A DNA stretch of 64,000 bases, from positions 1 to 64,000 of the forward strand of contig JADBKE010000015.1 in NCBI GenBank assembly GCA_014896535.1, given 5' to 3'. Source of the DNA: Candidatus Fermentithermobacillaceae bacterium (GTDB lineage Bacteria; Bacillota; Sulfobacillia; Fermentithermobacillales; DUSS01). How positions within the stretch are numbered: position 1 is the stretch's first letter; each line of letters begins with the position of its first letter. This document shows, in pieces, positions 479-61,430 of the stretch. The notes beneath the pieces were generated by a model. The model ran no database searches, was not told the origin of the DNA, and saw nothing but the letters and a program-made list of their open reading frames with translations. The translations under genes and the position numbers were made by a program.

Positions 479-1432
479 ATGGCTTTGGAAGAGATCTTTG
501 ACGACGAAACGCTGGATCTGGTCATAAGGGTATGTGAGATGTACTACAGGGACGGCATGACGCAGGAGGCTATCGCCAGAGCTGTGGGTGTGTCTCGCCC
601 GATGGTGTCGAGGTTGCTGTCGGCTGCCCGGGCTAAGGGTATAGTAAGTTTTTCCATAAACGATCCCAGAAATTCTATGAGACGGATAGCCGATGAGCTC
701 CGTGACAGATTTCAACTGAGAGCCGTCTACGTGGTCTCAGGTGCGGGAACCGATGACGAGATAAAGAAAAGGATAGGTGTGAGAGCTGCCCAGGTCCTAG
801 AACAGAGTCTGCAGCCTAATCAGGTGCTGGGTATCGGGCGGGGTGCTACTGTATTCTACACTGTATCGGCGCTGAGTGGCTCGAGACGCGTGCCAGGGTT
901 AAGAGTGACTCCGCTGGTGGGCGGCGCCGGGTTGCATGATGCTAAGTTCCAGGTAAACGAAATGGCACGGATGGCATCGGAGAAGCTTGGCGGCTCATGC
1001 GTGTTCTTTCAGGTTCCCTATTACGTGACCAGCCCTAAGATAAAAAAAGCGCTGCTGGAAGACGCGGCAATCGCCCAATGCGTATCCATGTGGAGTAATC
1101 TGGATTGTGCACTGGTAGGCATCGGTAGAATCGCGTCTACCCGTGACTCGCTGTTTTTAGCGAGGATTCGTGCAGCCGAAGAATACTCGAAACGGCGCAT
1201 CGTGGCAGACATTTGCGGCAGATTTCTGGACGAAAACGGAGAGGTCGTGACCGAGGAAACCGATGTGGTAATGGGGATCGATTTGCCTGCATTGCGCCGT
1301 TCCGGTACGGTTCTGGCTGTGGCCGGCGGTATTGATAAAGTTTCGGCTATCAAGGCCGCTCTCAAGGGTCATTGGGTTGACGTTCTGGTAACAGACGTTT
1401 CCGCAGCTGCAGGCATCCTCGAAACGTCATGA
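479..1432 (+). CDS. SorC/DeoR-family sugar-binding transcriptional regulator
   Basis: A 317-residue regulator of the SorC family. An N-terminal helix-turn-helix (about residues 28-47, MTQEAIARAVGVSRPMVSRL) precedes a large sugar-phosphate-sensing domain related to sugar isomerases, containing LGIGRGATV near residue 118. Length is normal for the family. The ATG at 479 follows AAGGGG at a suitable distance. It lies directly upstream of, and in the same direction as, mannose-class PTS genes, so it most likely senses the phosphorylated sugar and controls the operon, as SorC does for L-sorbose. The true effector cannot be read from sequence. Confidence 0.9.
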   Translation: MALEEIFDDETLDLVIRVCEMYYRDGMTQEAIARAVGVSRPMVSRLLSAARAKGIVSFSINDPRNSMRRIADELRDRFQLRAVYVVSGAGTDDEIKKRIGVRAAQVLEQSLQPNQVLGIGRGATVFYTVSALSGSRRVPGLRVTPLVGGAGLHDAKFQVNEMARMASEKLGGSCVFFQVPYYVTSPKIKKALLEDAAIAQCVSMWSNLDCALVGIGRIASTRDSLFLARIRAAEEYSKRRIVADICGRFLDENGEVVTEETDVVMGIDLPALRRSGTVLAVAGGIDKVSAIKAALKGHWVDVLVTDVSAAAGILETS

Positions 1433-1671
1433 GAGCTTGGACCTTTGGTTACCCCATTCGGTAATCTTTTCTGCGTACTCTCACTCAAAGCACTTTCCCC
1501 GTCGTGCGCCCCGACTGCGTTTCCCTTACCATTCACGACAATTACGGTTCGAAAGAAGAGTCGGAAATTAGGAGGATTATTACCGTCACGTGTCGAACTA
1601 GCACAAATGTCAGCACAATCGTTCACGGCGCCGGGTTGGGCTGACAACACAGTGTGTGGGGAGGGACCGAA

Positions 1672-2415
1672 TTGCTGCAGGCTATTCTCGTATCGCTATG
1701 GGCGTTTTGGATAGGTAGTTCGTTGACTTTAAACACGAGGTTTTTTGCGTTCATGAGGCCACTGGTATCCGGGTTCGTAGTAGGCCTGATTTTAGGTGAC
1801 CCGGTCAAGGGCACGATCATCGGGGCTACAATCAACGCCGTATACATTGGTTACATGTCGGTTGGCGGGTCCGCTCCGGCAGACATCCTCATTGCCGGGG
1901 TGCTGGGTCCTGCTATGGGCATCTTGGCCGACATGACTCCTGAGATGGCTCTTGCTTTCGCGGTGCCCGTCGCAATGGTCGGAAACTCCATCAACGTCTT
2001 GAAGATGTCGCTGTTCTCGTTTTTTGCCCACTGGGCGGATCGTTATGCTGAAGAAGGGAACATGCGCGGCATAGTCTGGCTGAATATCATACCTGGCACC
2101 CTTTTCGCTCTGGTGTACCCGGGTCTCGTCACGTTTCTGGCTGTGCAGTATGGAGCTGGTCCCATACAATCCCTTCTCTCTCTCTTACCGGCACCCGTGA
2201 TCTCTGGAATCACGGTGGCGGGTAAACTGCTACCGGCCGTTGGTTACGCGCTGCTGCTCAGATACATGACCACCGACCTTGTGGTATTGCCCGCATTTTT
2301 TGTCGGGTTCGTTCTGGCGGCTTACCTCAAACTCGACATCATGGCGGTGGTGATTCTGGGCGTCTGCTTCGTTATGCTCACCCAGAAGCAAGTTGCGGGA
2401 AAGGAGGCGAGCTAA
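1672..2415 (+). CDS. PTS mannose/fructose/sorbose-family EIIC
   Basis: Membrane permease subunit IIC of a mannose-class phosphotransferase system, 247 residues and almost wholly hydrophobic. It begins LLQAILVSLWAFWIG and contains the conserved GDPVKGTIIGATINAVYIG segment. The TTG at 1672 is chosen because GGGAGGG (1659-1665) lies 6 bases before it; the in-frame GTG at 1654 would sit inside that site. IIC and IID together form the translocation channel. The 240-base gap after the regulator holds no gene, but has a second copy of TGACAACACA at 1642-1651. Confidence 0.93.
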   Translation: MLQAILVSLWAFWIGSSLTLNTRFFAFMRPLVSGFVVGLILGDPVKGTIIGATINAVYIGYMSVGGSAPADILIAGVLGPAMGILADMTPEMALAFAVPVAMVGNSINVLKMSLFSFFAHWADRYAEEGNMRGIVWLNIIPGTLFALVYPGLVTFLAVQYGAGPIQSLLSLLPAPVISGITVAGKLLPAVGYALLLRYMTTDLVVLPAFFVGFVLAAYLKLDIMAVVILGVCFVMLTQKQVAGKEAS

Positions 2416-2416
2416 G

Positions 2417-3241
2417 GTGGCTGCTGGCGAGAAGAAACTGACCAAGCTGGACCTAATTAAGGTATGGGCGATTTGGACGGGCTTTCTTCACGGTCTGTAC
2501 AACTACGAGCGAATGCAGGGAGTCGGATTCGCCCACGCAATGATCCCCGTGATAAAACGGCTCTACCATACCAAGGAAGAAATATCTGCGGCGCTGAAAC
2601 GCCATCTTGTGTTCTTCAATACCAATACGACTACCGGAACGATCGCCGCAGGCATCGTCGCCGCGATGGAAGAACAGAGGGCCAACGGCGCCGACCTGTC
2701 CGACGAGATGATCAATAGCGTGAAGACTTCACTTATGGGACCGCTCGCTGGCATTGGTGACTCCGTTTTTCAGGGCATGATTTTCCCCATCTTGCTTGCG
2801 GTGGGGATTTCCCTCGGTCTCCAGGGCAGCGTATTAGGACCGATTCTTTACACTGTGCTGGTGCTAGGTATCTCGTACCCGCTCCACTACTGGTGGTTTA
2901 TGGCTGCTTACCAGCAGGGCGGGCCTCTCATCGAACGGTTGACCGAGAGCGGTCTTCTTAAGCAGGCAACAAAGGCAGCCAACCTCGTCGGACTCATGGC
3001 GGCGGGTGCGTTGACCGCGCGCTACGTCAACTTCAAGATCATCGGAAAAGTCAGCATATCTGGGCTTCCACCTATCGATATCCAGACCGAGGTGCTCGAC
3101 AAGATACTTCCCAATCTCTTACCATTGGGGCTCGTGCTGGGGATATGGGCGCTTTTGAGACGCGGTGTTAGGGTAAACAGGATCATCGGGCTTGTTTTCC
3201 TGGTGGGATTCATTCTCGGTTATCTCAAATTGCTGGGTTGA
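2417..3241 (+). CDS. PTS mannose/fructose/sorbose-family EIID
   Basis: Membrane subunit IID (274 residues), partner of the preceding IIC. Typical features are the N-terminal LGYNYERMQG-like segment (here LYNYERMQGVGFAHAMIPV), the conserved FNTNTTTGTIAAGI and MGPLAGIGDSVFQG segments, and hydrophobic helices in the C-terminal half. The GTG at 2417 is preferred: AAGGAGG at 2401-2407, inside the end of the IIC gene, is 9 bases upstream. Only one base separates the two genes, so translation is probably coupled. Confidence 0.94.
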   Translation: MAAGEKKLTKLDLIKVWAIWTGFLHGLYNYERMQGVGFAHAMIPVIKRLYHTKEEISAALKRHLVFFNTNTTTGTIAAGIVAAMEEQRANGADLSDEMINSVKTSLMGPLAGIGDSVFQGMIFPILLAVGISLGLQGSVLGPILYTVLVLGISYPLHYWWFMAAYQQGGPLIERLTESGLLKQATKAANLVGLMAAGALTARYVNFKIIGKVSISGLPPIDIQTEVLDKILPNLLPLGLVLGIWALLRRGVRVNRIIGLVFLVGFILGYLKLLG

Positions 3242-3257
3242 TCCGTGAAGTGGTTTA

Positions 3258-3292
3258 GGCGGGGCTCCATACCCAAGAACCGGAGCCCCGCC
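3258..3292 (+). other. strong intercistronic hairpin between EIID and AOR
   Basis: An 11-bp perfect inverted repeat (GGCGGGGCTCC at 3258-3268, GGAGCCCCGCC at 3282-3292) with a 13-base loop. No T run follows, so a normal terminator is unlikely. A role in mRNA processing, in stability, or in damping expression between the PTS membrane genes and the oxidoreductase is inferred. Confidence 0.6.
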
Positions 3293-3310
3293 CGGCTGGA
3301 GGTGGATCGG

Positions 3311-5248
3311 TTGGAGTCAATGCGTGGTTGGGGGCCGGTTTCCAGCAGCCCGGGCGGTGTGCGCCCGGGTTATACAGGGCGACTCCTTCATGTCGATCTT
3401 ACGAACGGGACCTGCGAAGCAAAGGAAATAGAACCACGCCTTCTGGGATTAATAGGTGGAAGCGGTTTTGCGGCTGACATCCTGTACAGGGAAACCGGTC
3501 CCGAGACAGCGCCACTCGGGCCCGAGAATGTCCTGTGTTTTATGACCGGACCCCTTACCGGCACCGCGGTGATGTGTTCCGGCAGACACGAAGTGGCTGC
3601 GAAATCTCCGCTGACGGGAATCTATGGGGAGGCCAGTGCTGGCGGCCACTGGGGCGCGATGCTCAAAAAAGCTGGATTCGATGGGATAGTTGTGCGGGGG
3701 CGGTCGGAATCACCCGTGTATCTGTGGATTGCCGAGGGTAGGGCTGAGCTGCGACCGGCAAATCACCTCTGGGGCCTTGACACGTTTGAGACCGACACGC
3801 GAGTGAAAGCGGAGACCACAGAAAAAGCTGTCGTGACGTGCATAGGTATTGCCGGAGAGCGAATGGTTCCCCTAGCTGCTATTATGAGCGAAGGGAAAGA
3901 AGCACGAGCTGCGGCCCGATGCGGGCTGGGGGCTGTGATGGGCTCAAAGAATCTGAAAGCCATTGCTGTATTTGGAACAGGTGATGTTACTGTTCACAAT
4001 TTGCACGCGGTGCTTGAGATGAATCGCCGCATAGGCCCGGAGACAGTGAGGGCTAACGAAGGCATGAAAAGATACGGTACGGGGGCAAGTCTCGAGTACG
4101 TTGAGAAGATCGGTGATTTGCCGATAAAGAATTGGTCCCAAGGGACCTGGAAGGAACCAGCCTCACGGATAGGCGGCATGCAAATCGTGAAACAGATGCG
4201 TACCAGGACGACAGCGTGCTACCGATGCCCCATTGGGTGCGGCAAGATGATCACCGAGCCGCACGGCCCTTATGGTCCCGTGGACGGGAGGGGTCCCGAG
4301 TACGAGTCGCTGGCGGCTCTGGGTTCCTACGTACTTATGGACGACCTCTATGCCATCGTTTACGCCAACGAATTGTGCAATCGGTTCGGGCTCGATACCA
4401 TATCGACCGGAGCGACCATTGCGTTTGCAATGGAGCTATACGAGAAGGGCATAATTGATGCTCACGACACCGGGGGTCTTCACCTCAGATGGGGAGATCC
4501 GCAGACCGTATTCACCCTTATCGGTCAAATCGCCCACAAAGAAGGGTTCGGAGCCATTCTCGGACTCGGTACCCGGCAGGCCTCTAGGGTGATCGGAAGA
4601 GGTGCGCAAGAGTACGCAATGCAAGTTAAGGGCCTAGAGCTTCCCGCCCACGATCCAAGAACTCGGGCGAGTTTGGCACTGGCGTACGCTACGTCCAACA
4701 GAGGAGCCTGCCACCTTCAGGGACAATCATCTATCTTCGAGTCCAGGGCAACGGATCCGTCTATCGGCATTGACAAGCCTCTGAGCCCTCACACATGGGA
4801 AGGAAAAGCCGATCTGGTTGTGAAAGCCCAAGCCATTGGAAGCATGTACGACTCGCTGTGCATGTGTCGCTACTTCAGACCCGGTGTGGACCAGGTTTCG
4901 AAATACTTCAGCTATGTCACCGGGGTAGACATGACCCCGGCCGAATTCCTGAGAACCGGGACCAGGATATTCACCCTGAAGCGACTATACAATTTGCGAT
5001 GCGGTATCACCAGAAAGGACGACACCATTCCTCCCCGAATTGCGACGCTTGCATTCCCAGAGGGGGGCTCTGCCGGGCACGTTCCGCATCTTGGCAAGAT
5101 GCTCGGTGAGTACTACCGGATCCAAGGGTGGAGCGAAGACGGGATCCCTACTCTGGAGACCATCAGAAAGCTCGGCTTGGAGGAATACGCCGGTTCAATC
5201 CCAGGTTATCTCATCAGACATAAGAACGCAGAAACTGGAGGCATCTAA
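3311..5248 (+). CDS. aldehyde:ferredoxin oxidoreductase family protein (tungsten/molybdopterin type)
   Basis: A 645-residue member of the AOR family, which oxidises aldehydes to acids and reduces ferredoxin using a tungstopterin and a [4Fe-4S] cluster. The N-terminal GYTGRLLHVDLT and GPLTGTAVMCSGRHEVAAKSP segments, and GLGAVMGSKNLKAIAV, are family hallmarks. Cluster cysteines are visible as C303-x2-C306-x3-C310 (CYRCPIGC) and a late C517/C519 (LCMCRYF). The TTG at 3311 is chosen because GGAGG at 3298-3302 lies 8 bases before it; an upstream GTG at 3245 would translate the 3258-3292 hairpin. Lying between PTS IID and an aldolase, it probably oxidises an aldehyde released in sugar breakdown. 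The substrate is inferred, not shown. Confidence 0.9.
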   Translation: MESMRGWGPVSSSPGGVRPGYTGRLLHVDLTNGTCEAKEIEPRLLGLIGGSGFAADILYRETGPETAPLGPENVLCFMTGPLTGTAVMCSGRHEVAAKSPLTGIYGEASAGGHWGAMLKKAGFDGIVVRGRSESPVYLWIAEGRAELRPANHLWGLDTFETDTRVKAETTEKAVVTCIGIAGERMVPLAAIMSEGKEARAAARCGLGAVMGSKNLKAIAVFGTGDVTVHNLHAVLEMNRRIGPETVRANEGMKRYGTGASLEYVEKIGDLPIKNWSQGTWKEPASRIGGMQIVKQMRTRTTACYRCPIGCGKMITEPHGPYGPVDGRGPEYESLAALGSYVLMDDLYAIVYANELCNRFGLDTISTGATIAFAMELYEKGIIDAHDTGGLHLRWGDPQTVFTLIGQIAHKEGFGAILGLGTRQASRVIGRGAQEYAMQVKGLELPAHDPRTRASLALAYATSNRGACHLQGQSSIFESRATDPSIGIDKPLSPHTWEGKADLVVKAQAIGSMYDSLCMCRYFRPGVDQVSKYFSYVTGVDMTPAEFLRTGTRIFTLKRLYNLRCGITRKDDTIPPRIATLAFPEGGSAGHVPHLGKMLGEYYRIQGWSEDGIPTLETIRKLGLEEYAGSIPGYLIRHKNAETGGI

Positions 5249-5251
5249 GGA

Positions 5252-6100
5252 ATGCTGGTCAGCACAAAAGAAATCCTGATTGACGCCAGGCGTAGGGGCT
5301 ACGCGGTGCCTGCTTTCAACATTACGGACCTACAGAGCATCATGGTAATCATGGAAACATGCGAAGAAGAAAGCGCCCCTTGTTTGATCGAAGCGGCAGA
5401 GCCCACCATTAAGGCTTACGGCGCGGATGCGTTGTTTGCCATGACTGAGGTGTTGGCAAAAAGGCACCGAATTCCTGTGGCGCTTCACCTCGATCATGGC
5501 TATTCCTTCGACGTGATCATGCAAGGGGTCAGAGCAGGTTTTAGCTCGGTCATGTTCGACGGCTCGAGACTTCCGTTCGATGAAAATGTCGCTGCCACGA
5601 AAAAGATTGTGGAGATATGCCACGCCTGCGGGGTATCAGTTGAGGCAGAAATCGGTCACGTGGGCGTAGCGGATCATGCTCCCTCGGAGGAGGAACGGGC
5701 GCAATACCTTACGAGGCCGGAAGACGCACGCCGGTTTGCAGAACTCACCGGGGTCGACTTTCTTGCAGTAGCTATCGGTACAGCCCACGGGACGTATAAG
5801 TTCACGCCTACGCTTGATCTCGAACGGCTTTCGAAGATCGCGGAGCAGGTGGATTTACCGCTAGTAATTCACGGTGGGTCGAGTACCCCGGGGATCGAAA
5901 AGACCCCTGCGCTAGGGGTATCCAAGGTCAACGTCTTCACCGATCTCCAAGTAGCCATCAGGGAGAAGGCCAAAGAGATCCTGGAAACAGAGCCTCTTGA
6001 AAAGTTGACAGCCGTCAAAATATGGTTAACCGCTAACAAAGCGGCTGCGCCCGTCGCCCGCGACTGGCTACGAAAGCTTGGGGCATCCGGCAAAGCATGA
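5252..6100 (+). CDS. class II fructose/tagatose-bisphosphate-type ketose aldolase
   Basis: A 282-residue zinc-dependent class II aldolase of the FbaA/GatY/KbaY group. Metal and substrate motifs are present: ALHLDHG, VEAEIGHVG, AVAIGTAHGTYK and VIHGGSS. The ATG at 5252 follows TAAGGA, three bases after the AOR stop, so the two genes are surely cotranscribed. It would split a ketose (bis)phosphate imported and phosphorylated by the PTS into dihydroxyacetone phosphate plus an aldehyde. Whether the substrate is a 1,6-bisphosphate or a ketose 1-phosphate cannot be decided here. That choice determines whether a free aldehyde is made for the neighbouring AOR. Confidence 0.9.
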   Translation: MLVSTKEILIDARRRGYAVPAFNITDLQSIMVIMETCEEESAPCLIEAAEPTIKAYGADALFAMTEVLAKRHRIPVALHLDHGYSFDVIMQGVRAGFSSVMFDGSRLPFDENVAATKKIVEICHACGVSVEAEIGHVGVADHAPSEEERAQYLTRPEDARRFAELTGVDFLAVAIGTAHGTYKFTPTLDLERLSKIAEQVDLPLVIHGGSSTPGIEKTPALGVSKVNVFTDLQVAIREKAKEILETEPLEKLTAVKIWLTANKAAAPVARDWLRKLGASGKA

Positions 6101-6307
6101 AGTCCGGGTGGGAATGGCAGCGTGGTATCGGCTGGTGGTTCAGATGGCGGGATGCTATGCGCCGGTATAACGCAGTCGGACGCCGGGCGTCTTACAGGAT
6201 GAAGCGTTCTTGGCGTGGCGCAGGTGACAGGAGAGGCGCGCCGACGGTTATCTGAAAAGCGCGCCGATGCTGCAGTCTCTTGGATAGTACTGACGGGAGG
6301 CACACAG

Positions 6308-7354
6308 ATGAACACGTACAAAGTAGCTAGAATTTCTGGACCAGGGAAAGTCGAAATCGAGGAATGGGAGATACCGGTTCTCCGCGATGACGAAGTCCTC
6401 GTAAAGGTGCTAGCGTGCGCCATATGTACGTCGGACCAGGGCGTGTTCCGCGGCGAGCGCGAGTCCTCATACCCAGTGTACGCCGGTCACGAAATCTCCG
6501 CAGTGGTTCAGGAGGTCGGGCCGGCAGTTGTTTCAGGGGTAAAACCAGGCGATCACGTAGCGGTGTCCCGGATCAACAGGTGCGAGCAGTGCACCAACTG
6601 TCGCAAATACACCGACAATCGCTGCTTGAACTCAAGGAAACTTCATCGTCCAGGCAGACCGGCAGGACCAGGGGGCTTTGCCGAATTGATGGCCGTTCCC
6701 GGGTACCAGGTCTTTAAATTCCCTCAGGAGATCGACCGTATTACCGCCTCACTCACGGAGCCGGTTGCGTGTTGCATCAGCAGTGTCGATAAAGCTAACG
6801 TGCAGCCCGGGGATGACGTTTTAGTGGTCGGTGCTGGTGTGATGGGGTTGATTCATGTCAACCTGTTGAGTCTCAAAGGTGCTCGTGTGCTCGTTTCCGA
6901 GGTTGCATCTGAAAGGCGCCGGCTAGCCAAAGACTTTGGGGCCGACGTCGTGCTGGACCCTGCAGGCGGTCCCCTGGCAGAGCAAGTCGGCCAGGTAACG
7001 GGCGGCAAGGGCGTAGAAGCCATATTTGTAACCGGAGGTCCTCCTGACCTGGTTTCGGATTTAATGGGTACATGTGCTACCGGGGCAACGATGGTTATTT
7101 ACACATCTTATCACGGTGAAAAGGGATCAAAGGCCGAAGTGGACCTCAATCGTATCCACTATAATGAGATAAAACTGGTCGGGACCATTAGCCCGCGGAA
7201 GTATGATTTCCAGCGGGCAGTCGCTCTGGTTGCCAACGGGAAGATACGGGTATCCCAGCTCGTAGAGAGAGTGTTCCCGTTCAGCCGGATTCAAGAAGCT
7301 TTTGAGTACGCGATCCGCCCGGGTTCGTATAGAGTGGTCGTACACATGGAGTAA
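6308..7354 (+). CDS. zinc-dependent medium-chain alcohol/polyol dehydrogenase
   Basis: A 348-residue medium-chain dehydrogenase. The catalytic zinc site is CAICTSD (C40) with GHE (H61). The structural zinc cysteines are C92, C95, C98 and C106 (CEQCTNCRKYTDNRC). A Rossmann VGAGVMGLIHV follows for NAD(P). The ATG at 6308 has GGGAGG about 7 bases upstream; the longer frame back to 6215 lacks a site. It is comparable to sorbitol or L-sorbose-1-phosphate dehydrogenases that accompany mannose-class PTS genes in sorbose operons, but the substrate is unknown. The 207-base gap before it holds no gene or clear promoter. Confidence 0.88.
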   Translation: MNTYKVARISGPGKVEIEEWEIPVLRDDEVLVKVLACAICTSDQGVFRGERESSYPVYAGHEISAVVQEVGPAVVSGVKPGDHVAVSRINRCEQCTNCRKYTDNRCLNSRKLHRPGRPAGPGGFAELMAVPGYQVFKFPQEIDRITASLTEPVACCISSVDKANVQPGDDVLVVGAGVMGLIHVNLLSLKGARVLVSEVASERRRLAKDFGADVVLDPAGGPLAEQVGQVTGGKGVEAIFVTGGPPDLVSDLMGTCATGATMVIYTSYHGEKGSKAEVDLNRIHYNEIKLVGTISPRKYDFQRAVALVANGKIRVSQLVERVFPFSRIQEAFEYAIRPGSYRVVVHME

Positions 7355-7484
7355 GATTTCCGACAAGGCTCCGGGTAGGTTGGCCCGCAGTTCGTGGTTC
7401 CGAAGCGAGGAAACCGTCAAGACCACGCTGGCGAGATCGGGGATCACCGGTAGGTGCTGAGGACGCTCAAAGGAGGGAGTTTCA

Positions 7485-7892
7485 TTGGTAATAGGTATCC
7501 TGGGCCATGGAGACTTGCCCGATGGATTGCTTAGCGCTATGACCCTCATTTGCGGGGAGCAGGAAAAGGTCTTTGCCGTCGGGTTGAGACCGGAGGAATC
7601 GCCCGAGGCTTACGTGGAACGTGTCACCCAGGCACTGCGGTCCTGTGGTGAGGAGGAAGAGGTTCTTTTCCTCGTGGACGTGAAGGGCGGTACCCCATGT
7701 AATGTCGTCGCGAGACTAATCAGTCCCAAGCGCCGCTGTATAGCTGGGGTGAACCTGCCAGTGCTCCTTCAAGCCGTCATGAGTCGCGGTGAGGCTCGAT
7801 CAGTTAAGGAGCTGGCAGCCAAGGTGGTCGATGACGGGCAAGGGTCCATCGTCGACTTTTCTGCGGAGCTTGAGGCCATGATGGGGAATTAA
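7485..7892 (+). CDS. PTS mannose-class EIIA
   Basis: Cytoplasmic phosphocarrier subunit IIA, 135 residues, a normal size for a free-standing IIA domain. The phosphorylated histidine is most likely H8 in ILGHGDLPDGLL. The LFLVDVKGGTPCNV segment is conserved in the family. The TTG at 7485 is preceded by AAAGGAGGG (7469-7477), an excellent site. It accepts phosphate from HPr and passes it to IIB. EI and HPr are not in this window. Confidence 0.92.
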   Translation: MVIGILGHGDLPDGLLSAMTLICGEQEKVFAVGLRPEESPEAYVERVTQALRSCGEEEEVLFLVDVKGGTPCNVVARLISPKRRCIAGVNLPVLLQAVMSRGEARSVKELAAKVVDDGQGSIVDFSAELEAMMGN

Positions 7893-7972
7893 AGAACAGA
7901 GCCGGAACACGCGGTACCGATGGGCTTGACATTGCCCGGCACAAGACGTGCAACCAGGAGGCGACTGCCGAG

Positions 7973-8437
7973 ATGCGACCTGTTTTAGTCCGGATAGACG
8001 ACAGGTTAATTCACGGTCAGGTGATGACAGGTTGGCTTAAGGTTACAGGGGCCAAGAAGATCATCATCGCCGACGACTTCGTGGCCAAAGATAAATTCTC
8101 GCTTCAGGTGCTCAAAATGGCGGCGCCGAGCGGGATCACCGTGGAGGCCTTGACCGTAGATGATGCAGCAAAGGCCCTTACGGAGAACAGCAGCGGAGAT
8201 GAAAAAGTAATAGTGTTGTGCAAAACCCCGAGGGAACCCAAGAGGCTTCTAGACCTGGGCGTTCAGTTCGACAAGCTGAACGTCGGAGGTGTGGGATCCA
8301 AGCCCGGACGCAAGCCGTTTTACAGGAATATCTCCCTATCGGAAGAGGAGATATCGATTTTGAAGGAAATAGCAACCAGGGGAGTAAAAGTAGAGTTCAG
8401 AATAGTTCCCGACGACAAGCCGTTTTTCCTCGAATAG
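7973..8437 (+). CDS. PTS mannose/fructose/sorbose-family EIIB
   Basis: Subunit IIB, 154 residues, which transfers phosphate to the incoming sugar. The active-site histidine is H14 in RIDDRLIHGQVMTGW, the family signature. The ATG at 7973 has AGGAGG 10 bases upstream. With IIA, IIC and IID this completes a full four-part mannose-class transporter, split into IIC-IID at the front of the operon and IIA-IIB at its end, with the catabolic enzymes between. Confidence 0.94.
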   Translation: MRPVLVRIDDRLIHGQVMTGWLKVTGAKKIIIADDFVAKDKFSLQVLKMAAPSGITVEALTVDDAAKALTENSSGDEKVIVLCKTPREPKRLLDLGVQFDKLNVGGVGSKPGRKPFYRNISLSEEEISILKEIATRGVKVEFRIVPDDKPFFLE

Positions 8438-8668: not shown

Positions 8669-10759
8669 GTGAAGGAATATGCCATAGAAAACCTGCGTAA
8701 TGTTGCTCTGATAGCTCATAGCGGCGCCGGGAAGACGTCCCTCGGTGATGCCATGCTCTTCATATCCGGCGGCAACACGCGCCTTGGCAAGGTTGACGAG
8801 GGCACGTCAATGCTGGATTTCGATTCCGAAGAAATCCGTCGCAAGACCACCATATCCACTTCGGTGGCACCGGTTGAATGGAAAGGCACCAAGATAAATT
8901 TGCTCGATACCCCCGGGTATTTCGACTTCGTGGGTGACGTGCTGTCAGCTCTTCGCGTGGTGGAAGGAGCGATAGTGGTCGTCGATGCGACGGGAGGCGT
9001 GCAGGTAGGGACAGAGATCGTATGGGACTATGCACGGCAACGGAATCTCTCCTGCATCATAGCGATAAACAAGCTTGACAGAGAGAATACCGACTTCTGG
9101 AAGACGCTTGACGAGGTCAACCGCGCCTTTGGCGGCTCTGTCGTTCCGCTCTACATCCCTCTGGGCAAGGAAGCAAATTTCCACGGCGTTGTCGACGTCA
9201 TCGGAGGCAAAGCTCTGCTTACGCAAGGGGAAGGCAAGATAACAGAACAGGATGTTCCCCAAGACCTGAAAGATGCTGTGGACTCCGCCAGGGAGAAACT
9301 GGTCGAGACTGCTTGCGATGGGGACGACGAGCTTATGGAGAAATACATCGAGGGGCAGGAGCTGACCAAGGAAGAGATAACCAGAGGCCTTAAACTCGCC
9401 GTCCTCAAGAGAAAGGCTTTTCCGGCCATTCCGGCTTCGGTGGCCAAAACCATCGGGGTGCATGCCATAATGGATTCCATCGTTGCATACATGCCTTCGC
9501 CTGCTGACGTGAAGGCCCCGGTGGGCAAGGCCCTGGGTTCGGAGGAGGAAAAGTCGTTTGAGGCGACGCCGGCGGCCCCGTTCTCGGCCCTGGTGTGGAA
9601 GACCACGGCTGACCCCTTCGTCGGGAGACTATCTTTGTTCCGGGTGTATTCGGGTAAGTTTGTTTCCAACACCACGTGCTTTAACGCCACGAAAGGCAGG
9701 ACCGAACGGATAGGCCAGCTCTACTCTATCAAAGGCAAGAGCCAGGAACCGGTACCTGAAGTGTCCGCCGGCGATATAGGTGCCGTGGCCAAGCTCCAGG
9801 AGACGACCACAGGAGATACCCTATGTTCGGAGTCGGCACCCATCGTTTATGAACCCATAGCTTTCCCCAATCCCGTCTACTCGGTAGCTGTTCGGCCGAA
9901 GACCAAAGGAGACGAGGACAAGATATCTGCGGGTCTTCAGCGACTGGTTGAAGAAGACCCCACGATTCGAGTGGAGCGAAACACCGAAACCGGGGAGACC
10001 ATACTGTCGGGCCTGGGAGAGGTGCATGTAGACGTCACCACCACCAAGCTAAGGGATAAGTTCCACGTCGATGTGGAGCTTTCCCTTCCCAAGGTGCCCT
10101 ACCGGGAGACCATAAAGGGGACCGCGAAGGCCGAGGGTAAGCACAAGAAACAAACGGGCGGTAGAGGCCAGTACGGTCACGTTTTCATAGAGTTCGAACC
10201 CGCCCCTGATAAGGAGTTCGAGTTTGTGGACAAGATCTTCGGCGGCGCGGTTCCTCGGCAGTACATTCCTGCGGTTGAGAAGGGTTTGCGGGAAGCCCTC
10301 AACGAAGGCGTGCTCGCGGGATACCCTGTGACGAACATAAGGGCTATCCTCTATGACGGCTCGTACCACCCAGTGGACTCTTCGGAACTGGCGTTCAAGA
10401 TCGCTGCGTCGCTTGCCTTTAAGAAGGGGTGCGCCGAAGCTAATCCCGTGCTCCTGGAGCCCATCATGCGGGTAGAGGTCATGGTGCCCGAGCAATTCAT
10501 GGGCGATATCATGGGTGATTTCAACAAGAGACGAGGACGGATTCTGGGTGTGGAGGCCAAAGGTCCCTTCCAGATCATCAGAGCCATGGTCCCCATGGCG
10601 GAGATGTTGAAATACGCCATAGACCTCCGGTCGATGACTCAGGGAAGGGGAATCTTCAAGATGGAGTTTGACCGGTACGAGGAAGTCCCGCCTCAGGTAG
10701 CCGAGGGCATCATTGAGGCCGCCAGGAAAGAGAAAGAAAAGGAAAAAGAAAACAAGTAG
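8669..10759 (+). CDS. elongation factor G paralogue (EF-G-like GTPase)
   Basis: A 696-residue translational GTPase with all five EF-G domains but a divergent P-loop, AHSGAGKTSLGDAM, where the canonical fusA product (at 58073) has [22 protein letters not shown] (G3) and NKLD (G4) are intact, so it should bind and hydrolyse GTP. GTG 8669 follows GAGGAGGG. Paralogues of this type are common in Bacillota and Thermotogota beside a standard EF-G. Their role (translocation under special conditions, or ribosome recycling) is not settled. It has its own candidate promoter and probably does not belong to the sugar operon. Confidence 0.88.
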   Translation: MKEYAIENLRNVALIAHSGAGKTSLGDAMLFISGGNTRLGKVDEGTSMLDFDSEEIRRKTTISTSVAPVEWKGTKINLLDTPGYFDFVGDVLSALRVVEGAIVVVDATGGVQVGTEIVWDYARQRNLSCIIAINKLDRENTDFWKTLDEVNRAFGGSVVPLYIPLGKEANFHGVVDVIGGKALLTQGEGKITEQDVPQDLKDAVDSAREKLVETACDGDDELMEKYIEGQELTKEEITRGLKLAVLKRKAFPAIPASVAKTIGVHAIMDSIVAYMPSPADVKAPVGKALGSEEEKSFEATPAAPFSALVWKTTADPFVGRLSLFRVYSGKFVSNTTCFNATKGRTERIGQLYSIKGKSQEPVPEVSAGDIGAVAKLQETTTGDTLCSESAPIVYEPIAFPNPVYSVAVRPKTKGDEDKISAGLQRLVEEDPTIRVERNTETGETILSGLGEVHVDVTTTKLRDKFHVDVELSLPKVPYRETIKGTAKAEGKHKKQTGGRGQYGHVFIEFEPAPDKEFEFVDKIFGGAVPRQYIPAVEKGLREALNEGVLAGYPVTNIRAILYDGSYHPVDSSELAFKIAASLAFKKGCAEANPVLLEPIMRVEVMVPEQFMGDIMGDFNKRRGRILGVEAKGPFQIIRAMVPMAEMLKYAIDLRSMTQGRGIFKMEFDRYEEVPPQVAEGIIEAARKEKEKEKENK

Positions 10760-23165: not shown

Positions 23166-24413
23166 TTGAACGGTACGCTTTGGGCGATAATCGCCGCGGG
23201 TGGCGTCGGGGCGCGAATGGGGAGCTCCATCCCCAAACAGTTTATCCACGTGGGCGGTAAGCCCGTTCTGGGTCTGACTCTGGAAAGGCTCATGAGCTCA
23301 CCGCTTGTTTCAGGGGCGGTTGTCGTTCTGCCGCTGGAGTGGTTCGACAGAGGCGAAGAAGCGATCCGCAGGTACTCCAGAGGGAAGCCCGTACGCGCGG
23401 TGCAGGGTGGTTCCACCAGACAGGAATCAGTGAGAGCTGGACTTGCTTGTGTACCCCAGGAAGCATCATGGGTTTTAGTCCATGACGCTTCGCGTCCCAA
23501 CGTTTCTGTCGAGCTGGTGCGGGAGGTGGCCGAGAAGGCTTTCCAGACCGGTGCAGCCATTTCCTGCGTTCCCATCTACGATGCGCTGAAATCCCTGGGC
23601 AATGATAGGGTGGCCAAGGTGACCCCGCGGAGAGAAGAGCTTCTGGCGGTTCAAACTCCGCAGGTGTTTGCGCGAGATCTTCTGACCCGAGCTCACCTGG
23701 CGGCTCTGAGGGATAATTACACCGGGCAAGACGATTCCGAACTCGTAGAACGTTTGGGGCATCCGGTAGCCCTTGTGAGGGGATCAAGACTGAATTTCAA
23801 GATTACCACTCCCGAGGACCTGGTAATGCAAGAGGCGCTCGAGCGCTACAGGCGCGTTACGGCAGGTGAATACGGCCCGTTCCGGCCGGTCAGGCGTTAC
23901 GGAAGGCCCGTTCGGCGAGAGGGCCTCGTTTCGCAACCGGCGAGAACAGGTATCGGTTTTGACGTTCACAGATTTGCCGGTGACAGGCCCTGTATTCTCG
24001 GGGGTGTGACGGTGCCCGGTCACCCGGGTCTCGAAGGCCATTCAGATGGAGATGTGCTGTGCCACGCGGTGATGGATGCCTTGCTTGGGGCAGCTGGCGA
24101 AAAGGACATAGGACACTGGTTTCCTCCCGGGGACCCCAGATATGAAGGAGCTTTCAGCCTCGGCCTTTTGAGTGAGCTGTGGAAGGTACTATCTCGCCGG
24201 TGGCAGGCTATCAACGTTGATGCGACGGTGATAGCCGAAGTGCCGAGGATATCACCGTACTGCGACCTGATGCGGGAGAACATCGCGCATGCGCTGGAAC
24301 TCGACCGGAGCAGCGTTTCGGTGAAGGCTACGACTCCGGAAAAGATGGGCGCTCTCGGACAGAAGGAAGGAATCGCTTGCGTAGCCGTGGCATGCCTGAC
24401 ACGCCGGTGTTGA
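23166..24413 (+). CDS. ispDF: bifunctional IspD/IspF (MEP isoprenoid pathway) fusion
   Basis: 415 residues. Residues 1 to about 225 are IspD, 2-C-methyl-D-erythritol 4-phosphate cytidylyltransferase (AAGGVGARMG near residue 10, VLVHDASRP, and QTPQVF). Residues from about 258 to 412 are IspF, the 2,4-cyclodiphosphate synthase (metal ligands D266 and H268 in GFDVHRF, GHSDGDVLCHAVMDALLGA). The Arg-rich linker is about 30 residues. The TTG at 23166 has AGGAGGG five bases upstream, one base after the previous stop. Bifunctional enzymes are best known from alpha- and epsilon-Proteobacteria; most Bacillota have separate adjacent genes. Confidence 0.93.
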   Translation: MNGTLWAIIAAGGVGARMGSSIPKQFIHVGGKPVLGLTLERLMSSPLVSGAVVVLPLEWFDRGEEAIRRYSRGKPVRAVQGGSTRQESVRAGLACVPQEASWVLVHDASRPNVSVELVREVAEKAFQTGAAISCVPIYDALKSLGNDRVAKVTPRREELLAVQTPQVFARDLLTRAHLAALRDNYTGQDDSELVERLGHPVALVRGSRLNFKITTPEDLVMQEALERYRRVTAGEYGPFRPVRRYGRPVRREGLVSQPARTGIGFDVHRFAGDRPCILGGVTVPGHPGLEGHSDGDVLCHAVMDALLGAAGEKDIGHWFPPGDPRYEGAFSLGLLSELWKVLSRRWQAINVDATVIAEVPRISPYCDLMRENIAHALELDRSSVSVKATTPEKMGALGQKEGIACVAVACLTRRC

Positions 24414-33816: not shown

Positions 33817-35019
<1,203 letters not shown>

Positions 35020-58072: not shown

Positions 58073-60157
58073 ATGCCGAGGGATTTTCCTTTGGAGCGCG
58101 TCAGAAACATAGGCATCATGGCCCACATCGATGCGGGTAAGACTACCACCACCGAACGGATCCTTTTCTACACGGGACGGGTTCACAAGATGGGCGAGGT
58201 CGACGAAGGTTCGGCGACAATGGACTGGATGGTTCAAGAGCAGGAACGCGGAATAACTATTACGTCGGCGGCGACCACGTGCTACTGGAAGGATCACAGG
58301 ATAAACATTATAGACACGCCAGGGCACGTTGACTTTACCGCCGAGGTAGAGCGGTGTCTGCGCGTACTCGATGGAGCGGTGGCCGTGTTTTGCGCCAAAG
58401 GCGGCGTCGAACCCCAATCCGAAACAGTGTGGCGTCAAGCTGACAAGTACGGTGTGCCGAGAATCGCCTACGTTAACAAGATGGACGCGGTAGGTGCGGA
58501 CTTTTTCCGGGCAGTCAGAATGATGGTAGACAGGCTCGGGGCACGGCCGGTCATCCTCACTCTGCCGGTGGGAATCGAAGAGTCGTTCTCAGGCGTCGTC
58601 GATCTCATCAAGATGAGGGCGTTCTATTGGGTGGACGAATTGGGCACCCAAATCCGCGAAGACGTCATCCCCGAGGACTTGAGAGAAGCGGCGGCTACCT
58701 ACAGAGATAAGCTAGTGGAAACTGCAGCTGACTTCTCCGAGGAGGTGCTGGAAGCTTACCTTACCGGCACCGATGTGTCTGAGAAGGCTCTTCTTACAGC
58801 TCTGAGGAAGGGCACCATAGCGATGAAAATCGTGCCGGTGCTGTGCGGCTCGTCCCTTCGAAACAAGGGCGTTCAGAAGCTTCTCGACGCCATAGTTGAC
58901 TTCCTGCCATCTCCGCTGGACGTACCACCTGTGGCCGGTGAGGTTCCCGGTACGGGAGAGGTTGTCCTGCGAAAGCCATCGGACGACGAACCCTTCACGG
59001 CGCTGGTCTTCAAGGTGGCGGTCGACCCGTACGTCGGAAGGCTCTCTTACTTCCGAGTTTATTCGGGGTCTCTTACCAACAGGTCCTACGTTTACAACGC
59101 CACTCGGGGAAAGGGCGAAAGGATATCGCGGCTTTTGCGGATGCACGCAAATCACCGCGAGGACATCGACGAGGTGAGGACCGGAGACATCGCCGCGACA
59201 GTGGCGTTGAAATACACGTTTACCGGGGACACCCTTTGTCCCGAGGATCATCCCATCGTCCTCGAGCCCATCAGATTCCCGGAACCCGTCATATCGGTGG
59301 CCATAGAGCCCCAGTCCGTTCAGGATCAGGATAAGCTCGTCCTCGCGCTACAGAAACTCGCCGAGGAAGACCCCACCTTCTCGGTGCGTACCGATGAGGA
59401 GACTGGTCAGACCATCATCTCGGGAATGGGCGAGCTTCACTTGGAAATCATCGTCGACCGGCTTACGCGAGAATTTGGGGTCAAGGTGTTGGTGGGACGT
59501 CCCCAGGTGTCATACAGAGAGACCATAACTAAGACGGTGGAAGCGGAAGGCAAGTTCATTAAGCAAACCGGAGGCCGCGGGCAATACGGGCACGTGATCA
59601 TCCGAATGGAACCGCTTCCGAGGTCCTCAGGGGTCGAATTCCGGTCGGAGATAAAGGGCGGTGTGATACCCCAAGAGTTCATTCCGGCTGTGGAAGCGGG
59701 AGTGCGGGAAGCTCTTGAGTCGGGGGTGCTGATGGGACATCCCGTAACCGATGTCCGGGTCACGCTGCTCGATGGCTCCTATCACGAGGTAGACTCCTCG
59801 GAGATCTCGTTTAAAGTTGCCGGTTCTCTGGCGGTTAAACAGGCACTGGAAAAGGCCGGTCCCATACTCCTTGAACCGATGATGTCGGTGGAAGTGGTGG
59901 TGCCTTCCGCGTTCCTGGGGGACGTGCTTGCCGACCTCAGTCAGAGGCGAGCCGAGATTACGGGCGTGGAAACGAGAAACGACCTGGAGACAATATCGGC
60001 GACGGTGCCTCTTTCCAGTATGTTCGGGTACGCGACGGACCTTCGCTCAAAGAGTCAGGGAAGGGGTACCTATACGATGCAGTTTTCACACTACGGCGAA
60101 GTACCGCCCGAAGAGGCACAAAAACTCATCGACAGATATCTCGGGCGGCTTCCATAA
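58073..60157 (+). CDS. fusA: elongation factor G (canonical)
   Basis: 694 residues with standard motifs [24 protein letters not shown] and NKMD. Drives translocation. ATG 58073, AAAGGGGGG upstream. It is the housekeeping copy; the divergent paralogue is at 8669. Confidence 0.97.

Positions 60158-60227: not shown

Positions 60228-61430
<1,203 letters not shown>

Follow-up and report, generated by a model that had tools for sequence, protein, structure and literature searches.

An operon joining a mannose-class PTS to an aldehyde oxidoreductase

The window, a stretch of 64,000 nucleotides from an uncultured, thermophilic and fermentative Candidatus Fermentithermobacillaceae bacterium, carries at positions 479-8437 a set of eight intact genes, all on the + strand, that encode a SorC regulator, IIC, IID, an aldehyde oxidoreductase (AOR), a class II aldolase, a zinc dehydrogenase, IIA and IIB. 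All eight products have Pfam matches well over cut-off, which bears out the gene order, single direction and SorC control described in the initial annotation. The features are as follows:

479..1432, + strand: SorC/DeoR-family regulator with a sugar-phosphate-binding domain (PF04198, Sugar-bind, 198.7 bits; 86% in the sister species)
1672..2415 (alternative ORF start 1654), + strand: mannose-class PTS EIIC (PF03609, EII-Sor, 221.7 bits)
2393..3241, + strand: mannose-class PTS EIID (PF03613, EIID-AGA, 293.2 bits)
3258..3292, + strand: 11-bp GC-rich hairpin separating IID and AOR, shared with the sister species
3359..5248 (probable start; longest ORF from 3245), + strand: AOR/WorL, 629 aa (PF02730 + PF01314, AFOR_N + AFOR_C)
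5252..6100, + strand: class II DHAP-type aldolase without the D-x-R C6-phosphate motif (PF01116, F_bP_aldolase, 291.9 bits)
6305..7354 (probable start; ORF from 6215), + strand: zinc medium-chain dehydrogenase, IolM/Tdh/GatD-like (PF08240 + PF00107, ADH_N + ADH_zinc_N)
7485..7892, + strand: mannose-class PTS EIIA (PF03610, EIIA-man, 79.6 bits)
7973..8437, + strand: mannose-class PTS EIIB (PF03830, PTSIIB_sorb, 166.6 bits)

The PTS is complete, as had been claimed: IIA, IIB, IIC and IID are all in the operon, and the gene for Enzyme I lies outside it, on contig C13 of the same genome. Genes for MoaA (pterin cofactor) and RnfC are also found elsewhere in the genome. No sugar kinase is recognisable in the window operon or in any related operon. 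The NCBIfam equivalog models of PTS proteins and dehydrogenases all score far below their cut-offs and so do not point to a particular substrate. Upstream of IIC, the search for a SorC operator gave only a weak match resembling GAACAAA.GT between two or three species, and no operator is claimed.

Two gene starts have probably to be moved downstream: that of the dehydrogenase from 6215 to an ATG at 6305, and that of the AOR from 3245 to a GTG at 3359. The first 38 codons of the ORF from 3245 are probably non-coding because they contain the hairpin, because their first codon positions have changed about as often as their third ones (10/2/9 differences from the sister species at positions 1/2/3, against 44/29/212 in the AOR body), and because the sister species has an ATG at codon 39. 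Compared with shuffled sequences, the hairpin has a z of -0.44 in the window, which is not beyond the shuffles, and of -3.1 in the sister species. It could allow separate expression of the PTS and enzyme genes.

The aldehyde oxidoreductase

The AOR matches its family domains over its full length (AFOR_N 247 bits, AFOR_C 437 bits), and its best PDB matches are themselves AORs, with 1aor scoring 427 bits over residues 42-648. It retains four cysteines (C287, C290, C294 and C503) that are taken, by comparison with PfAOR, to be the cluster ligands, and the motifs GPEYES and CHLQG, which presumably supply the active-site Glu and His. The protein is described as a putative tungsten enzyme on the basis of its family membership and the presence of MoaA in the genome. 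No gene for a WorS electron-transfer subunit lies beside it.

The window AOR has the AFOR_N + AFOR_C architecture and the cofactor and cluster residues in common with PfAOR, GAPOR and CbGOR of the WOR family (PMC13328260), and ferredoxin use would be expected of it as a single-subunit WOR. GAPOR and CbGOR belong to glycolysis and oxidise glyceraldehyde 3-phosphate, whereas the window AOR is found within a PTS operon and reaches only 38 bits with the GAPOR model (NF040818; cut-off 1300). A GAPOR identity was rejected on this score.

The window genome encodes only three AORs, and both of its mannose-class IIC loci have one. The third shows that AORs have other jobs in this organism too.

The aldolase lacks its C6-phosphate site

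The class II metal-binding and catalytic motifs HLDH, VEAE, GTAHG and HGG align and are intact in the window aldolase, and its AlphaFold model (pLDDT 89.6) matches class II aldolases, with a Foldseek TM of ~0.89 to KbaY. In the class II FBP aldolase of Giardia, R259 and R280 bind FBP and D278 coordinates both (PMC6692403); Arg280, which comes from the partner subunit, sits at C6 in class II FBP aldolase (PMC4973958). The corresponding D-x-R motif (Giardia D278-P-R280) is absent in all nine operon aldolases examined, with the window protein reading T-A-V, and the R259 position is occupied by Gln in the window aldolase, so that both Arg positions that contact the C6 phosphate are replaced. D-P-R is present in KbaY and in the FBAs of Taq and B. 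methanolicus, and the second class II aldolases of the window genome and two congeners read D-A-R. SqiA (8q57, 8q58) also lacks D-x-R, and its product, sulfolactaldehyde, is an aldehyde without phosphate.

The loss of D-x-R and R259, together with the lack of a recognisable kinase in the related operons, favours a predicted reaction in which a ketose 1-phosphate yields DHAP and an aldehyde that bears no phosphate, and the replaced residues disfavour a bisphosphate aldolase. The loss of the C6-phosphate site would not by itself identify the substrate.

In a classical tagatose- or fructose-bisphosphate route, the PTS and the dehydrogenase would instead produce a ketose 6-phosphate, an external PFK would phosphorylate it again, and the aldolase would split the product to DHAP and GAP, with the AOR acting on GAP or on something else. 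The general composition of the operon is compatible with such a route, as gat-type pathways also combine a PTS with a zinc dehydrogenase and a class II aldolase, and KbaY and FBA are the closest solved structures to the aldolase. However, there is no kinase in any related operon, the D-x-R motif and the R259 equivalent are replaced, and the AOR does not approach the GAPOR model. The bisphosphate route is improbable for these reasons, and ketose 1-phosphate cleavage is the preferred reaction.

Conservation and recurrence of the linkage

The initial annotation had made its case depend on a conserved linkage between AOR and PTS genes in relatives. The linkage is kept, and it comes in three architectures: that of the window (type A) and two other arrangements of AOR, aldolase, zinc dehydrogenase and mannose-class PTS (types B and C).

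The whole type A operon is found in a second species of the genus (G002), and in the MAG Tomsk_2_57_33 the whole operon is present at 85-94% (AOR 88%). A genome from another class of the same phylum (G425) has AOR, aldolase, dehydrogenase and IIA in the same order, with identities of 62, 65, 50 and 49%. The contig of this locus (L203) is 3.8 kb long and cut at both ends, with IIA represented by its first 94 residues; searches of this genome gave neither IID nor MoaA. Among the 398 sampled genomes of the phylum, the window genome and G425 alone have a full-length aldolase match with 50% identity or more, and in both the AOR is directly upstream of it.

Type B is found in the window's own genome, on contig C17, and in G001 and G002 (L160-162). 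A divergent SorC gene is followed by IIB, a fused IIC-IID, a class I (DeoC/LacD) aldolase, AOR and dehydrogenase; no IIA was recognised, and the G001 contig stops short of SorC. The IIB of type B has 297 aa, the N-terminal ~120 residues of which have no Pfam match (L160, G000:C17 44000-60000). Type C (L167/L168), with the order IIA-IIB-IIC-IID-dehydrogenase-class II aldolase-AOR, is found in Ca. Fermentithermobacillus carboniphilus Bu02 (G007) and in G016, where the copy is cut by the contig end. The window genome also contains an orphan IID gene fragment (L246, G000:C7:245003-245161; ~53% over 52 residues), perhaps the remains of a decayed third mannose PTS.

Across 154 genomes of the class, an AOR is present at 7 of the 40 EII-Sor loci; the other 33 have none within the stretch examined, and several of these are on short contigs. 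Two genomes of the same class, G006 (aldolase 70%) and G050 (55%), have orthologous aldolase, dehydrogenase and PTS genes with no AOR in the operon, and G001 has a related operon without AOR. The AOR is thus an accessory rather than a core component. The linkage is conserved but narrow, since PTS neighbours are absent from the 79 other best AOR loci of the named genomes (L005-L083).

In an AOR tree, the type A proteins form one clade with 100% support, type B falls elsewhere, and type C is the sister of the genus' non-PTS AOR on contig C10. A single clade of all A, B and C AORs is rejected (p-AU 8.8e-5), which means that AOR has been recruited into such operons, or replaced in them, more than once; grouping A and B alone is not rejected (p 0.19).

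Might the AOR be a passenger gene that landed between IID and aldolase by accident and takes no part in the pathway? The existence of the G006 operon without it and the scatter of the operon AORs over different clades would fit such an origin. On the other hand, the same order is found in another class at ~62% identity, and the association is repeated in three architectures, with an AOR in both PTS operons of the window genome. Random placement of three AORs at both PTS loci has p ~1.5e-4, a rough figure for a comparison chosen after the fact. The arrangement is more than chance, with its order kept in another species and another class and both IIC loci having an AOR, and a mere passenger is very improbable. 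A working part in the metabolism of the PTS substrate is the preferred role for the AOR.

An operon in which the oxidoreductase is replaced

Of the operons without AOR, that of G006 is the closest to the window operon (IIC 68%, IID 67%, aldolase 70%, dehydrogenase 64%), and this genome has neither AOR nor MoaA. Dehydrogenase and aldolase genes are paired twice in its cluster, and the second pair precedes a gene for a BdhA/YqhD-type iron alcohol dehydrogenase. The related aldolase of type C (57% and 51% identity) is followed by the AOR. An enzyme of an aldehyde-reducing type thus appears to occupy in G006 the place that the aldehyde-oxidising AOR has elsewhere, and this replacement suggests that the aldehyde product is handled stoichiometrically. 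The same alternation is known from sulfoglycolysis, where the aldehyde is either oxidised or reduced, depending on the organism, and where class I and class II aldolases are interchangeable (PMC9594981). Taken as a whole, the G006 locus (L164, G006:C1 5000-20000) combines the two dehydrogenase-aldolase pairs and the iron alcohol dehydrogenase with one IIC and two IID genes, possibly reflecting two substrates that use one common IIA/IIB.

Two other roles for the AOR are less likely. One is detoxification, in which it would clear methylglyoxal (from DHAP) or leaked aldehyde and not carry the main oxidative step. Several characterised bacterial WORs are broad in aldehyde specificity and have been proposed to detoxify (PMC9424855, PMC13328260), and some orthologous operons do without an AOR. 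Against this, the AOR is no stand-alone gene but lies inside the operon, with IID before it and the aldolase after it, and the iron alcohol dehydrogenase in its place suggests stoichiometric use of the aldehyde, which makes detoxification an unlikely main function.

The other is the reverse direction, with the AOR using reduced ferredoxin to turn an acid into the aldehyde and the dehydrogenase forming the alcohol, which would serve as an electron sink like that of acetogens that form ethanol. AORs can reduce acids (PMC9295118, PMC12727526), and in many relatives an AOR adjoins an iron alcohol dehydrogenase. However, the dehydrogenase-aldolase pair occurs without AOR in several PTS operons and so is part of the sugar path, and a PTS operon would be an odd place for acid reduction. 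This direction is highly unlikely, and oxidation of an aldehyde made by the aldolase is the reading pursued below.

A proposed ketose 1-phosphate pathway

The preferred reading as a whole, which we put at roughly 0.62, is that of a catabolic operon whose substrate would be a sugar alcohol or, less likely, a sugar. The mannose-class PTS would import the substrate and phosphorylate a primary hydroxyl. Oxidation of a secondary hydroxyl next to it by the zinc dehydrogenase would then produce NAD(P)H and a ketose 1-phosphate. From the latter the class II aldolase would release DHAP, for use in glycolysis, and a short (C1-C3) hydroxyaldehyde without phosphate. The AOR, as a tungsten-type enzyme, would oxidise the aldehyde to the acid and reduce ferredoxin, to be re-oxidised by Rnf and/or a hydrogenase, while SorC would sense the phosphorylated sugar. 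A hydrogenase has been described for Bu02 (PMC10215811). The scheme is built on gene content and order, conservation, recurrence, residue loss and the EI, MoaA and RnfC genes, from which we infer the reactions, the substrate and the electron route.

The release of DHAP plus a free aldehyde had been put forward in the initial annotation. As chemistry read from sequence, it is favoured by the lost C6-phosphate arginines, the absent kinase and the iron alcohol dehydrogenase in the AOR's place; the glyceraldehyde suggested there becomes one of several candidates, along with glycolaldehyde, lactaldehyde and formaldehyde.

A more general proposal, for which the odds appear about even, is that of a kinase-free PTS route via ketose 1-phosphate in which the free aldehyde feeds a tungsten AOR and ferredoxin-linked energy conservation. 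Such a route would have been recruited repeatedly, with the iron alcohol dehydrogenase taking over, reductively, in genomes that lack the cofactor pathway.

Relation to known systems

In the gat, sor and aga operons (galactitol, L-sorbose and N-acetylgalactosamine), too, one regulator governs a PTS permease, a zinc dehydrogenase and a class II aldolase. They differ in passing hexulose 6-phosphates through a kinase to the 1,6-bisphosphate and are not known to include an AOR, and KbaY keeps the D-P-R that is lost from the window aldolase. The ydj cluster of E. coli includes zinc dehydrogenases, as the window operon does; it has a kinase and, unlike the window operon, is not known to include a PTS or an AOR. 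Its class II aldolase, YdjI, has the KbaY fold and joins DHAP to a non-phosphorylated aldehyde (PMC11194214). There is a likeness in chemistry to sulfo-EMP and sulfo-EMP2, where YihT or SqiA splits a ketose 1-phosphate so that DHAP and a phosphate-free aldehyde result (PMC9594981), as proposed here. In those pathways, however, the sulfosugar is phosphorylated by a kinase and not by a PTS, and the aldehyde goes to NAD-type enzymes instead of an AOR. The window operon contains no sulfoquinovosidase, isomerase or other sulfoglycolysis gene.

The protein families are all known, and their combination had been described as not textbook. In the literature searched, which left most subscription papers out of reach, nothing relevant was found on AOR with PTS or aldolase, and the combination of AOR, aldolase and PTS appears to be new to that extent. 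The words "PTS", "aldolase" and "sugar" are absent from the main text of a 2026 classification of WORs into 92 clades with 4,064 neighbourhoods (PMC13328260).

The arrangement points to a hitherto undescribed route by which low-potential electrons may be drawn from sugars or sugar alcohols. It would show a fermenter taking such electrons from the half of the sugar that never enters lower glycolysis, and one AOR lineage gains a pathway context open to testing, in which its neighbours are defined, the class of aldehyde is predicted and a natural replacement by an alcohol dehydrogenase is there for comparison. The mannose-type PTS of Ca. Fermentithermobacillus, mentioned for Bu02 only in connection with N-acetylglucosamine (PMC10215811), may also have polyols or ketoses among its substrates.

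Other features of the window

A second EF-G-type GTPase is encoded directly after the operon (8669-10759), in addition to a fusA-like gene at 58073-60157. There are also two EF-Tu genes (33817-35019 and 60228-61430) with almost the same protein sequence. The gene at 23166-24413 reads, by eye from its translation, as an IspD-IspF fusion.
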